The notes below the pieces were generated by a model. That model was not told where the DNA came from, did not search any database, and was given only the letters and a program-made list of their open reading frames with translations. Below, in pieces: positions 2,815 through 45,246 of a stretch of 52,304 nt of DNA. The number at the start of each line of letters is the position of its first letter. Positions within the stretch are counted from its first letter, which is position 1. This DNA comes from a virus. The stretch spans positions 1-52,304 of the IMG/VR virus record IMGVR_UViG_3300020197_000033, one strand, 5' to 3'. A program made the position numbers and the translations under genes.

Positions 2815-3057
2815 ATGCATATGAAGAAAAAAACCATTAGTAAACTTATTCAGGGCCCTTTGCGGTTTCATCATCAAGATATTCATGAAGAATTGGAAGA
2901 AATCAAAACTCTTATTACTAAAGTTTTGGTAAAGTTGGAAGCCTGTGACAAAAAACCAGTAAAACATGAGTTAAACAATACTAATTTGAAGTGGAAAAAT
3001 GAATATGGGTTTTTTCCCGCTTCACAAGTTGAAGAGTCTGTGATAGAATCTACCTAA
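2815..3057 (+). CDS. Hypothetical protein with central coiled-coil
   Basis: An 80-residue protein starting MHMKKKTISK (ATG 2821 is an alternative). A helical, heptad-like stretch spans about residues 20-45 (HEELEEIKTLITKVLVKLE), followed by a polar C-terminus. No family is recognised. A late-promoter-like box lies immediately upstream, so late expression is possible. Confidence 0.55.
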   Translation: MHMKKKTISKLIQGPLRFHHQDIHEELEEIKTLITKVLVKLEACDKKPVKHELNNTNLKWKNEYGFFPASQVEESVIEST

Positions 3058-3078
3058 TACTCTCCTTTAAATATTTAA

Positions 3079-3393
3079 ATGTCTATTTTTGGGTTAATCC
3101 TTTTTAATTTATTACTTTTTGCCCTTCTTAGACGACAAGTAAATGTAAAAGTTCGTAAAAGTTTTTCGATTTCTCTGCGTGACTTGGAGGGAAATAAACA
3201 AACCTTGGCAGATACAATTTCTTTTCTTCTAGAACAAAATAAAGTACAAGAACAAAGATTGTTTTATTTGGCCAAAGAGATGGAGGTTCAATGGTCAAAC
3301 ATTGAACTCATAAAAGAAAACCTTCAAATTTCTGATGATGACCTTGGTGACCACCCATTCACGATTCCCGAGGATACAAAAGAAGATGAATGA
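3079..3393 (+). CDS. Membrane-anchored coiled-coil protein, unknown function
   Basis: A 104-residue protein. One N-terminal membrane helix (about residues 2-18) is followed by a long helical region (about 40-85) and an acidic tail. The overall shape, a short membrane anchor plus a cytoplasmic coiled-coil, is all that can be said. It overlaps the next gene by 8 bases. Confidence 0.6.
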   Translation: MSIFGLILFNLLLFALLRRQVNVKVRKSFSISLRDLEGNKQTLADTISFLLEQNKVQEQRLFYLAKEMEVQWSNIELIKENLQISDDDLGDHPFTIPEDTKEDE

Positions 3394-28714: not shown

Positions 28715-28743
28715 TTGACATTTTGGATTGGCCACTCTATACT
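28715..28743 (+). promoter_or_regulatory. Sigma-70-type early promoter
   Basis: TTGACA (28715-28720), a 17-base spacer and TATACT (28738-28743). It drives the three small genes ahead of the tRNA cluster. Confidence 0.8.
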
Positions 28744-29333: not shown

Positions 29334-29335
29334 AT

Positions 29336-29418
29336 GGGGCGGTGGTGAAATCGGTAGACACACCAGACTTAAAATCTGTTGGGCATTGCCCGTGGGAGTT
29401 CAAGTCTCCCTCGCCCTA
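29336..29418 (+). tRNA. tRNA-Leu (anticodon TAA)
   Basis: An 83-base class II tRNA. The anticodon loop CTTAAAA gives TAA. The acceptor strands GGGGCGG and TCGCCCT pair with G-U at both ends. The T-arm is GGGAG-TTCAAGT-CTCCC and the long variable arm is the GGGC/GCCC hairpin. The first anticodon-stem pair is mismatched. No CCA is encoded. It reads UUA, a codon common in this AT-rich phage. Confidence 0.92.
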
Positions 29419-29423
29419 TGGCA

Positions 29424-29440: not shown

Positions 29441-29512
29441 GCCTCTTTAGCTCAGTGGTAGAGCAACGGTTTTGTAAACCGTTGGTCATCGGTTCAAATC
29501 CGATAGGAGGCT
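29441..29512 (+). tRNA. tRNA-Thr (anticodon TGT)
   Basis: A 72-base tRNA. Anticodon stem-loop ACGGT-TTTGTAA-ACCGT gives TGT (reads ACA). The acceptor GCCTCTT pairs with AGGAGGC including a U-G pair. The D-arm TAGCTCAGTGGTAGAGCA and T-loop TTCAAAT are normal. It abuts the tmRNA acceptor half with no gap. Confidence 0.95.
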
Positions 29513-29812
29513 TCCGCTTTTGCGGATAGGTGGTTCCACCGATATTTCGGACAGGGGTTCGATTCCCCTTATCTCCATTTCGCGGGGATATACTGGTTTC
29601 GACGGGGTGTTATGGGGAATTACTGAAACCTGCTTGGATAAGCAAAAAATAGATGCCAAAAACATCGAAGCCGCGAACAAGATTGTTCGCTTCTCCCGTC
29701 AGTCTGCTCCTGTAGCTGCCTGACCCATATAAGGGAGAACGGGGTCAAGTCAGCCTTGTTACCCAAGTGACTCTTGAGGGTGAAATGCCCTCCCCAAATG
29801 ATAAGGGGGAAT
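29513..29812 (+). ncRNA. ssrA: Circularly permuted tmRNA (ssrA), acceptor half then coding half
   Basis: tmRNA frees stalled ribosomes and tags the unfinished protein for proteolysis. The acceptor half comes first: small hairpins from 29514, T-arm AGGGG-TTCGATT-CCCCT (29553-29569), acceptor strand TATCTCC (29570-29576) and discriminator A 29577. Six bases later the coding half begins with GGGGATA (29584-29590), which pairs completely with TATCTCC, including G3-U70, the alanine identity pair. The tmRNA hallmark GGTTTCGAC follows, then a TGCTT/AAGCA hairpin, the tag frame ending at TGA 29721-29723, and GACCC/GGGTC, GAGGG/CCCTC and CCCC/GGGG hairpins. The 3' boundary is approximate. This acceptor-before-coding order is the permuted form known from marine picocyanobacteria. 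Confidence 0.93.
29655..29723 (+). other. tmRNA proteolysis-tag reading frame
   Basis: The frame ends ANKIVRFSRQSAPVAA followed by TGA. Picocyanobacterial tags have the form ANNIVRFSRxxAPVAA, so this should be recognised by host ClpXP-type proteases through its AA end. The resume codon is either GCG 29673, giving the 16-residue tag, or GCC 29655, which follows AATAGAT and adds AKNIEA in front. Confidence 0.85.
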
Positions 29813-29813
29813 T

Positions 29814-30017
29814 ATGTCTCTTATTTCGCAACGAGATAGACAACTTGCTATTACCGCTTTTAATCACTATATTGATTTTCTTTCCAGTGAAGTAGAATTC
29901 CTTGAGAAAGAAGATATGCTAGATGATGTCAATTATGAAGAGTATAAATCAGAACTAACTGAATCCTATGCTCTAGTGAATTGGATCAAACTAGAATATC
30001 AAAAAAATGAAAATTAA
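29814..30017 (+). CDS. Small acidic helical protein after the tmRNA
   Basis: A 67-residue protein starting MSLISQRDRQLAITAFNHYIDF. Its ribosome binding site AAGGGGGA is the 3' arm of the last CCCC/GGGG hairpin of the tmRNA region, so RNA processing or folding could affect its translation. Acidic and helical; no family is recognised. Confidence 0.6.
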   Translation: MSLISQRDRQLAITAFNHYIDFLSSEVEFLEKEDMLDDVNYEEYKSELTESYALVNWIKLEYQKNEN

Positions 30018-30201
30018 TCTGTGGTATTGTAGAGAGATGAAACAGTGGCGATGGACTCTTGTAGATGATCATCGACCTATTATAAAACAAGAATCTGGCC
30101 AAAGACCCGATCTCAGAGATGCAATGAATGATGTTGCCGATACTGTAGAATATCTGTTAGAGTATCAATGCCCGAATGGTGAAATTGGTAAACACGCATG
30201 A
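30007..30201 (+). CDS. Small conserved-looking protein whose end lies inside tRNA-Leu(TAG)
   Basis: A 64-residue protein starting MKINLWYCREMKQWRWTLVDD; the body looks like a compact alpha/beta domain. The last ten residues and stop (CPNGEIGKHA) are read from the 5' half of the tRNA starting at 30170. Either the tRNA gene was inserted over the original 3' end or it landed there with the stop retained. tRNA processing would destroy part of the coding sequence. Confidence 0.6.
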   Translation: MKINLWYCREMKQWRWTLVDDHRPIIKQESGQRPDLRDAMNDVADTVEYLLEYQCPNGEIGKHA

Positions 30202-30249
30202 CTTAGGATCATGTGCTTCGGCTTGGAGGTTCGAGTCCTCTTTCGGGCA
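30170..30249 (+). tRNA. tRNA-Leu (anticodon TAG)
   Basis: An 80-base class II tRNA. The acceptor GCCCGAA pairs perfectly with TTCGGGC, discriminator A. Anticodon stem-loop CATGA-CTTAGGA-TCATG gives TAG. The variable arm is short (GTGCTTCGGCTT region) and the T-arm is GGAGG-TTCGAGT-CCTCT. It is a second Leu isoacceptor, complementing TAA. Confidence 0.92.
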
Positions 30250-30339
30250 TTGCTATTTGCGCTGGAGCTGATAATCCAGAATGCCGTAGCAAAATTGGGG
30301 AAGTGATCCTGCGGTTCCGTCCAAGAGCTCTCCTTCCCC
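30250..30339 (+). ncRNA. Possible small structured RNA between tRNA-Leu(TAG) and next gene
   Basis: Two stem structures follow the tRNA directly. In the first, TTGCTA (30250-30255) pairs with TAGCAA (30287-30292), enclosing CTGGA/TCCAG (30262-30279). In the second, GGGGAAG (30297-30303) pairs with CTTCCCC (30333-30339). There is no open frame with a ribosome binding site and no T-run. T4 also makes small stable RNAs of unclear function in its tRNA cluster, so a similar RNA is possible. Confidence 0.4.
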
Positions 30340-30603: not shown

Positions 30604-30612
30604 CATCAGTAT

Positions 30613-30684
30613 TCCTCTGTAGCTCAGCGGTAGAGCGGTCGGCTGTTAACCGATTGGTCGCAAGTTCGATCCTTGCCGGGGGAG
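30613..30684 (+). tRNA. tRNA-Asn (anticodon GTT)
   Basis: A 72-base tRNA. Anticodon loop CTGTTAA gives GTT. The acceptor TCCTCTG pairs with CGGGGGA through several U-G wobbles, discriminator G. The T-loop TTCGATC and D-arm TAGCTCAGCGGTAGAGCG are normal. Confidence 0.94.
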
Positions 30685-30686
30685 TC

Positions 30687-30759
30687 GGGGAATTAGCTCA
30701 GTTGGTAGAGCATCGCCTTTGCAAGGCGGTTGTCAGGGGTTCGAGTCCCCTATTCTCCA
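30687..30759 (+). tRNA. tRNA-Ala (anticodon TGC)
   Basis: A 73-base tRNA two bases after tRNA-Asn. Anticodon loop TTGCAAG gives TGC. The acceptor GGGGAAT pairs with ATTCTCC and includes the G3-U70 alanine identity pair, discriminator A. It resembles the acceptor of the tmRNA nearby. Confidence 0.95.
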
Positions 30760-40430: not shown

Positions 40431-41198
40431 ATGAATTTAAATATTTTTGATTCGAATAATATTGATGTTAATAATCATTTGCTGATTAGAACTGATAGAA
40501 TTGGACCAGATAAAAATCATCCTGTATTCACTGTTGATAATATACTAACAGATCCAGATAAATTGGTGTCTGATGTAATCGAAAAGATGCCTGTGGATGT
40601 ATCTGCCTTTAGATCATCGTCATTTCCTGGTATCCAAGTTCCACTCAATTTGAGGTTTGGTCAAATTAACAATTTTTTAGCTTATTGTATCAATGAACAA
40701 ACGGATTTCGATGTAGATAATTCAGATAGCTTGGACATATCATATCAATTGAATATATTAAAAACAAATGATACATGCGAGTGGAAATCTCTTCAACCGC
40801 ATGTAGATCCTTCTATGTTTGCATTTGTACTATATTTAAATCCAGATGAAGAGTGTAGAGGAGGCACTTCATTCTTTGAACATTCTGAATGTGGAGTTTA
40901 TAATATGGAACATGTTGATCCGAAGTTTAAGAGACAGGAAATCTACTGGAACTATAAAGAATGGGAATTTAATAATGTAGAAAAATTTACTGAAATCATT
41001 GAAACGGATAGGTCAAATATTGATGCATCCTGGAAAGAAATCCATCATGTTAAGATGAAATATAATAGAATGGTAATATATCCCAGTTATTTGTGGCACA
41101 CTGCAGTTTATAATAAATCGGATTACGCCGAGTTCTCTAGAGTTTCCATTTCTGGATTTGTAAGTAAAAACTATTTTACAAATGCAAGATCATATTAA
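40431..41198 (+). CDS. 2OG-Fe(II) oxygenase-like protein (DUF6445-like)
   Basis: A 255-residue protein. Iron ligands H124 and D126 in QPHVDPSMFAFVLYLN, GGTSFF in the barrel, and the distal His in YPSYLWHTA with a following Arg (FSRVSISGF) fit a 2-oxoglutarate oxygenase or a close relative. It lies right after the fibre gene and overlaps another oxygenase, so hydroxylation of a virion or surface component is a reasonable guess. The substrate is unknown. Confidence 0.75.
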   Translation: MNLNIFDSNNIDVNNHLLIRTDRIGPDKNHPVFTVDNILTDPDKLVSDVIEKMPVDVSAFRSSSFPGIQVPLNLRFGQINNFLAYCINEQTDFDVDNSDSLDISYQLNILKTNDTCEWKSLQPHVDPSMFAFVLYLNPDEECRGGTSFFEHSECGVYNMEHVDPKFKRQEIYWNYKEWEFNNVEKFTEIIETDRSNIDASWKEIHHVKMKYNRMVIYPSYLWHTAVYNKSDYAEFSRVSISGFVSKNYFTNARSY

Positions 41199-41745
41199 AC
41201 ATTTTGATCATATTTTAGATGCAGATGATTATTTTTCTCTTCTAAACCTATGTAATGGGTTTGATTTTGGTGATATATCATCTCCACGAGGGAGTTTTTA
41301 TTTTCTTGATGGTAAAAGATACAATAAAAAAATAATCAAAAATGATGGACTGATATTTGATATTATTCATAAGGCATTTGTATCTACTATGCCAAAAATA
41401 TATGAACAGTATGGTAGTGTGATTCCAAATGATTTAAGATACAATAAATACAGTGGATACTGGTTATGTAAATATACTGAAGGATCATATCTTTCGTATC
41501 ATAGTGATTCTGATGCTGATGCTGGTTCAATCACAGCATCATTTTCAATCAATGAAAATTATGAGGGTGGTGATCTCATTTTTTGGGATGATTATAAAAT
41601 TGAAAAGAAAAAGAACTGCATACATACATATCCAAGTTCTTTAACCCATCCGCACAGAGTTGATAAAATAACGAAGGGGGTTAGATACTCTGTAGTTGTT
41701 TGGTTTGCTTATCAAAAAGGAGAGGATTGGAGAGAAACATGGTAA
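41182..41745 (+). CDS. Prolyl-4-hydroxylase-type 2OG-Fe(II) oxygenase
   Basis: A 187-residue enzyme. H107 and D109 (YHSDSDA), H158 (HPHRV) and R168 (GVRYSVVVWF) are the iron and 2-oxoglutarate ligands; YEGGDLIFW is the usual barrel strand. It overlaps the upstream oxygenase by 17 bases and the next gene by 7, so the three are co-translated. A prolyl-hydroxylase-like role on a phage or host protein is possible but unproven. Confidence 0.88.
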   Translation: MQDHIKHFDHILDADDYFSLLNLCNGFDFGDISSPRGSFYFLDGKRYNKKIIKNDGLIFDIIHKAFVSTMPKIYEQYGSVIPNDLRYNKYSGYWLCKYTEGSYLSYHSDSDADAGSITASFSINENYEGGDLIFWDDYKIEKKKNCIHTYPSSLTHPHRVDKITKGVRYSVVVWFAYQKGEDWRETW

Positions 41746-44529: not shown

Positions 44530-45246
44530 ATGTCAGTTATTGATATTTTGCCTGCACCACTATATGTGGAAGAGTGTCCTTTTCATGACCAAAATAAGAG
44601 GACATTTAATGAAGAACTACTACAAGTCCTGGGTAATGGCATGGAAAACCCATCAGCGAAAGGACTGTATCATTTTGATTATTACTGCGTATTAGATGAT
44701 GATAAGTATTCTAGGTTTAGAACCTGGGTAGAAATACAAGCTGAGATTTTTGTGAGAGATATTCTGGGGTATCATTTGCCAGATAATGAAAGCATGATGA
44801 TGACTGATAGTTGGTTTAACGTATGTGCCAAAAATGGTCATCAGTATCCACATTATCATGGTAATGCTTTTGTTTGTGGATTGTATTACATCAATTTTGA
44901 TGAAAACAATCATGCTCCAACATACTTTGGTAGACCATCATCTAGTCGTAAGTTTCCTGAATATTCGGTTCTGGAACTCAACTATGATAAGAATACAAGA
45001 TACAATCAACTTGACCAAGTAATTGGTAAAGAAGGTACATTATTTCTATGGGAATCTCATATGGTTCATGGATATAAAACAAATGATAAAGACAATCGTT
45101 TTACTTTATCCATGAATTTTATGCCTACAGTGATGACTAATGGAAGTTATGGGTGGAGAGTGAGTAAACTGAATCCTAACGAAAGAAAATCTTGCTATCA
45201 AACATTTCGATCTGGTAAAACATGGAGTTCTCCCGACACACAATAA
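44530..45246 (+). CDS. 2OG-Fe(II) oxygenase superfamily protein
   Basis: A 238-residue protein. Here the first iron motif is H-x-H (QYPHYHGN, H108/H110), followed by FVCGLYYIN, the distal H180 in SHMVHGYK and R190 in DNRFTLSMNF. This arrangement fits the phage 2OG oxygenase family with the Asp replaced by His. It is the fourth such enzyme in the window. Substrate unknown. Confidence 0.85.
   Translation: MSVIDILPAPLYVEECPFHDQNKRTFNEELLQVLGNGMENPSAKGLYHFDYYCVLDDDKYSRFRTWVEIQAEIFVRDILGYHLPDNESMMMTDSWFNVCAKNGHQYPHYHGNAFVCGLYYINFDENNHAPTYFGRPSSSRKFPEYSVLELNYDKNTRYNQLDQVIGKEGTLFLWESHMVHGYKTNDKDNRFTLSMNFMPTVMTNGSYGWRVSKLNPNERKSCYQTFRSGKTWSSPDTQ

Follow-up and report, generated by a model that had tools for sequence, protein, structure and literature searches.

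A circularly permuted cyanobacterial-type tmRNA gene in a cyanophage tRNA array and its relatives in other cyanophages

Phage-borne two-piece tmRNAs, the cyanobacterial type included, are already published. One survey (PMC9004378) describes them mostly from marine phages, includes cyanobacterial-type phage genes in a tree legend and proposes two roles, clearance of ribosomes stalled on decaying host mRNA and tagging of host proteins for degradation; both had also been suggested for the present locus by a sequence-only reading. The methylophage Melnitz and the pelagiphages covered there resemble the virus described here as virulent marine phages with a complete permuted tmRNA and the same functional proposals, but their tmRNA belongs to an alphaproteobacterial lineage and lies under a glutamine riboswitch, which Rfam did not detect in the window (that is, the whole 52,304-base stretch of DNA analysed here). 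Mycobacteriophage DS6A likewise carries the tRNA-like domain of a tmRNA, but without a tag frame, and its molecule is thought to inhibit host tmRNA (PMC4131195, PMC11915505). Phage tmRNA sequences have been counted at 79 (PMC11915505). The cellular counterpart, the picocyanobacterial two-piece tmRNA (RF01851), shares with the window the permuted order, tRNA-like domain, G3-U70 pair, downstream pseudoknot and hairpin, and the tag core ANKIVRFSRQ.APVAA; the window gene differs in its lower model score, separate clade, place in a phage tRNA array and six-codon insertion at the resume codon. In the open-access literature, supplementary tables aside, we found no description of a separate cyanophage clade, of the insertion or of tag-end drift. 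No functional test of a cyanophage-type tmRNA was found in the literature, and Sullivan 2010 (PMC3037559) holds no tmRNA report for S-SSM7, the sole mention being in its reference list.

The window is a virus record representing a fragment of its genome; besides a tRNA array, it encodes a carbamoyltransferase and has tail and baseplate genes of T4-like type. At the DNA level its closest cultured relative is Synechococcus phage Sf-FS3. ARAGORN ordered the array as Leu(UAA), Thr(UGU), tmRNA, Leu(UAG), Asn(GUU) and Ala(UGC) (Table 1). Positions 29513-29792 hold a tmRNA gene of cyanobacterial type, intact and circularly permuted (two-piece). ARAGORN reported tmRNA* at 29488-29814, Rfam RF01851 (cyano_tmRNA) matched at 174.2 bits (E 1.4e-48, model positions 1-288 of 288) against a curated cut-off of 70 bits, and RF04321 matched at 98.5 bits (cut-off 47), so chance is excluded. 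The sequence-only reading had recognized a phage-encoded, circularly permuted tmRNA in a tRNA array and proposed a covariance-model search, and these results bear it out. An independent contig (L109) repeats 13,466 bp of the window at 99.985%, which shows that the locus is not an assembly artefact; this second assembly, together with synteny in other phages, rules out host contamination or a chimera. Elsewhere in the window, a sigma-70-like site (TTGACA-17-TATACT, 28715-28743, 11/12 to consensus) about 590 nt 5' of the tRNA/tmRNA array is a candidate early promoter, and three 2OG-Fe(II) oxygenase-like genes lie at 40431-41745 and 44530-45246, downstream of a 2248-aa fibre-like gene.

Table 1 Features of the tmRNA locus and surrounding tRNA array (window coordinates).
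Feature	Position	Strand	Basis and remarks
tRNA-Leu (UAA)	29335..29419	+	ARAGORN; Rfam 52.4 bits
tRNA-Thr (UGU), adjoining tmRNA acceptor piece	29441..29512	+	ARAGORN; neighbour common to seven related phages
tmRNA acceptor piece	29513..29577	+	Rfam alignment, fold, pairing; exact 5' end predicted
Intervening spacer TTTCGC, 6 nt	29578..29583	+	Sequence, spacer lengths; predicted absent from mature RNA
tmRNA coding piece	29584..29792	+	Sequence, Rfam; exact 3' end predicted
Tag reading frame AKNIEAANKIVRFSRQSAPVAA + TGA	29655..29723	+	ARAGORN; codon-position selection in relatives
18-nt in-frame insertion AKNIEA at resume codon	29655..29672	+	Alignment, tag table; phage-specific
Hairpin GCGAACAA/TTGTTCGC inside tag frame	29673..29690	+	Inverted repeat; matches host tag hairpin region
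tRNA-Leu (UAG)	30169..30250	+	ARAGORN; Rfam
tRNA-Asn (GUU)	30612..30686	+	ARAGORN; Rfam
tRNA-Ala (UGC)	30687..30759	+	ARAGORN; Rfam; 3' neighbour kept in relatives

The acceptor piece comprises a 5' hairpin (29513-29526), a connecting-helix strand, the T-arm AGGGG-TTCGATT-CCCCT (29553-29569), the 3' acceptor strand TATCTCC (29570-29576) and the discriminator A73 (29577). The ARAGORN start overlaps tRNA-Thr, and the hairpin at 29513 is the more likely beginning. The coding piece continues with the 5' acceptor strand GGGGATA (29584-29590), GGTTTCGAC (29595-29603), the first pseudoknot region, the tag frame, helix 5 and a terminal hairpin (29776-29792). The T-arm and 3' acceptor strand therefore precede the 5' acceptor strand with the spacer between them, and inspection found every element, from the T-arm and 3' acceptor strand (29553-29577) to GGGGATA, GGTTTCGAC and the tag, where the sequence-only reading had placed it. 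All seven acceptor pairs form, as it had also stated, including the G3-U70 pair of alanine identity, and A73 is present; unguided folding of 29513-29625 recovered the acceptor stem, T-arm and connecting helix (z = -2.3). Among phage tmRNAs these stems are kept by compensatory changes (for example T-arm pair 1 AT/TA/GC, pair 2 GC/TA/CG). Part of the T-arm variety has another source: in seven genes the arm scored was that of an inserted tRNA, which is what brought the nested tRNAs to light, and the acceptor and T-arm pairing rows of these genes are to be disregarded.

A pattern scan of viral contigs returned 118 stretches. Cyanobacterial-type tmRNA was present in 61 scanned records (the window's locus counted twice), or 46 distinct sequences, which with the genes of cultured Sf-FS3, S-SSM7 and S-SSM6a form the tree set of 49 distinct phage genes. 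Further matches came from S-CAM1, S-CAM3, S-CRM01 and the single-cell virus AG-345-P14, and all of these named viruses share with the window a phage-borne permuted gene of cyanobacterial type. N-terminal tag insertions, as in the window, are found in S-SSM7, S-SSM6a, Sf-FS3, S-CAM1, S-CAM3 and AG-345-P14; tag ends among the named viruses (DELVTA, ELATA, STVAA, QLATA and SLVAAL) are unlike that of the window. The window's order of tRNA-Thr, tmRNA, then tRNA-Asn and/or tRNA-Ala is repeated in seven relatives, and Sf-FS3 has the same tRNA neighbours; the S-CAM1 gene lies at another genomic place, preceding tRNA-Arg. S-SSM7 carries GGCTTCGAC where others have GGTTTCGAC. In the public cyanophage records examined (L002 = S-SSM7 3004-3222; L003; L001 3300-3509; L244 = S-CAM1), hypothetical proteins or nothing are annotated on or beside the tmRNA, SSSM7_025 of S-SSM7 overlying the tmRNA itself; the gene is thus missed or mislabelled there and the trait under-reported.

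Several other features of the viral genes were noted. Compared with the host form, many phage tmRNAs (L013, L005, L021, L022, L042, L016 and relatives) have a first-pseudoknot region reduced by about 7 nt, for example TTGTTGACGGAACAA instead of CCTGCTCGGTTAGAGCAA. The scan also returned a second viral group of permuted tmRNAs (L007, L008, L014, L030, L048, L056 and others) with the short tag GAYNAPLALAA or GTYNTPLALAA, which apparently belongs to another host lineage. On related phage contigs, Rfam reported an abiF RNA just over the cut-off and PhotoRC-II and wcaG cis-regulatory RNAs (L022 3640-3676; L064 6331-6424; L013 191-286). Whole tRNA genes occupy the spacer between acceptor and coding pieces in some relatives, tRNA-Tyr in L047, L057, L062, L064, L092, L118 and L122 and tRNA-Asn in L280 and L282, so at least two insertions occurred; none was found at 120 host loci. 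A single nested case, a tRNA-Ala in a nominally archaeal record, has been called unique (PMC11915505).

Phage and host genes are separated by a single branch (support 100/100) in an unrooted tree of the 49 phage and 41 thinned host genes, and the split persists on the tRNA-like part alone (99/90) and on well-filled columns only (88/95). When 22 one-piece cyanobacterial tmRNAs serve as the root and genes that contain a nested tRNA are omitted, the phages form one clade (100/98) that joins near the base of the picocyanobacteria, where the first host forks are weak (SH-aLRT 60-68). The window copy is sister to that of contig L049 (100/96), and this phage lineage is the nearest to hosts in the unrooted tree. 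RF01851 scores are 298-329 bits for the listed host genes versus 74-190 for phage copies. The host sample of the tree was gathered by a T-arm pattern, a limit from which the family-wide model search is free; that search exceeded the RF01851 cut-off in 218/251 picocyanobacterial genomes, with the weakest full host match by genome at E 9.1e-79, and found no phage-like copy in picocyanobacterial hosts among the genomes listed. A single old capture from picocyanobacteria fits these data best. The host capture proposed by the sequence-only reading thus stands as to ultimate source but not as a recent event, since the phylogenetic comparison with host ssrA that it had called for places the window copy outside the host genes, in the separate phage clade. 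A recent capture of the current host's ssrA would account for the permuted form and tag type, but it is very improbable, being ruled out by the trees and by the score gap (174 bits for the window), and no examined picocyanobacterial chromosome has a tmRNA that groups with the window copy. Transfer of the permuted form from phage to host is unsupported, as the one-piece outgroup puts the phages in one clade beside near-basal hosts, a placement to be read with the weak support of the deepest host forks.

The tag of the window comprises 22 residues in a complete frame with a stop codon, counted from the predicted resume codon. A resume-codon insertion of 6-7 codons is present in 33/49 distinct cyanophage tmRNAs, including the window's, and in 0/99 distinct host tmRNAs (alignment and tag table); the host-type tag claimed by the earlier reading is therefore correct for tag type and permuted form and incomplete for this addition. 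The window and L049 share an 18-nt form of the insertion, the remaining inserted phage genes a 21-nt form; its length is invariably a multiple of three and the first GCN lies at the resume-codon distance, which disfavours resumption at the second GCG (29673) with the insertion untranslated. Host tags are nearly invariant, with three sequences covering 89/99 distinct genes and ends of VAA (98/99) or IAA (1/99), whereas phage tags (n = 48) end in VAA (19), ATA (10), VTA (7), VAV (5), ALV (3), QTV (3) or FLV (1). The window retains the host-like end SAPVAA. Across inserted genes with 17 distinct codon sets, all from phages other than the window's, nearest-neighbour differences in the tag core fall at codon positions 1/2/3 as 0/0/16 (15 silent, 1 replacing). 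The tag core is therefore under protein-level selection in related phages, which argues for actual translation of the frame. The corresponding counts in the insertion are 14/6/16 (7 silent, 19 replacing), and, judging by position and frame, it is probably translated but loosely constrained. The window and L049 have identical core codons and differ at four codons of the tag end, three of them silently. No direct repeat supporting a tandem-duplication origin of the insertion was found, and duplication as its source is only suggestive. Host pairing at the counterpart of the hairpin within the tag frame was judged by eye in the alignment. A further possible hairpin, GAUG/CAUC, which would surround the first tag codon, shows one compensatory case (L094, GACG/CGUC) among competing folds and is a lead only.

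We consider the gene most probably a functional two-piece tmRNA that would rescue ribosomes stalled during infection, acting via host SmpB (probability about 0.72). This reading builds on the intact anatomy, phage location, model scores, compensatory pairing, core-tag selection in relatives, single old origin and the tRNA order kept in seven relatives; the 49 distinct phage copies in one clade also indicate long and wide retention. How the RNA is processed and charged, its use of SmpB, its timing and its benefit are predicted from sequence as follows. The tRNA-cluster transcript would be cut into an acceptor piece (~65 nt, with CCA added) and a coding piece (~210 nt), held together by base pairs in the connecting helix and acceptor stem. 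Once alanylated through G3-U70 and in complex with EF-Tu and SmpB of the host, the molecule would enter ribosomes that have halted on broken mRNAs in the infected cell, add its 22-residue tag to the stalled chain and free the ribosome for phage translation, using host alanyl-tRNA synthetase and proteases while host messages break down. Dependence on host SmpB is assumed because no phage SmpB was found in six related phage records, some of them complete; the window represents only a fragment of its genome. Tagged chains should reach host ClpXP, since APVAA, the host end, is retained in the window. Against rescue stands the host's possession of its own tmRNA, which makes the benefit to the phage less than obvious.

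A more tentative and rather unlikely possibility is a virus-specific branch of trans-translation, in which the insertion and, in most lineages, loss of VAA would uncouple ribosome rescue from degradation of the protein that carries the tag, and whole tRNAs, inserted repeatedly between the pieces, would let tRNA processing mature the tmRNA. It is unlikely that the gene serves chiefly to redirect tagged proteins, with the phage tmRNA outcompeting the host's and replacing its tag, whether for recycling of host proteins or, where relatives have altered ends, for sparing tagged chains from ClpXP. Changed ssrA-tag ends slow ClpXP, and the altered ends in other lineages suggest that proteolysis may be dispensable for some phages. 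Trans-translation acts on stalled ribosomes and is not known to select host proteins; selective tagging of these is a possibility at most. The drift of tag ends in phages but not hosts and the phage-specific insertion agree with such a role, and host-protein recycling has been suggested for Melnitz (PMC9004378), but the window tag still has a host-like end and the drift may be neutral. We regard as improbable a decoy role, in which the RNA would tie up SmpB or alanyl-tRNA synthetase and so block trans-translation in the host: the DS6A-type molecule that inhibits tmRNA (PMC4131195, PMC11915505) offers a precedent, but a decoy needs no tag, and the frame absent from DS6A is complete in the window and selected as protein. 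Nor is the gene likely to be a passive, functionless passenger of a recombining, tRNA-rich region; tRNA clusters are known hot spots for gene turnover in cyanophages (PMC3037559) and the S-CAM1 gene has a different place, but core-frame selection, intact pairing and retention across many separate phage lineages speak against it.

The present analysis adds the cyanophage clade and its old capture, protein-level selection on the tag, the insertion, tag-end drift and nested tRNAs. The trait is testable in the cultured pairs S-CAM1/WH7803, S-SSM7/WH8109 and Sf-FS3/WH8102. With their constant core and varied tag ends, the dozens of cyanophage copies form a natural experiment on whether the virus needs rescue, proteolysis or both.
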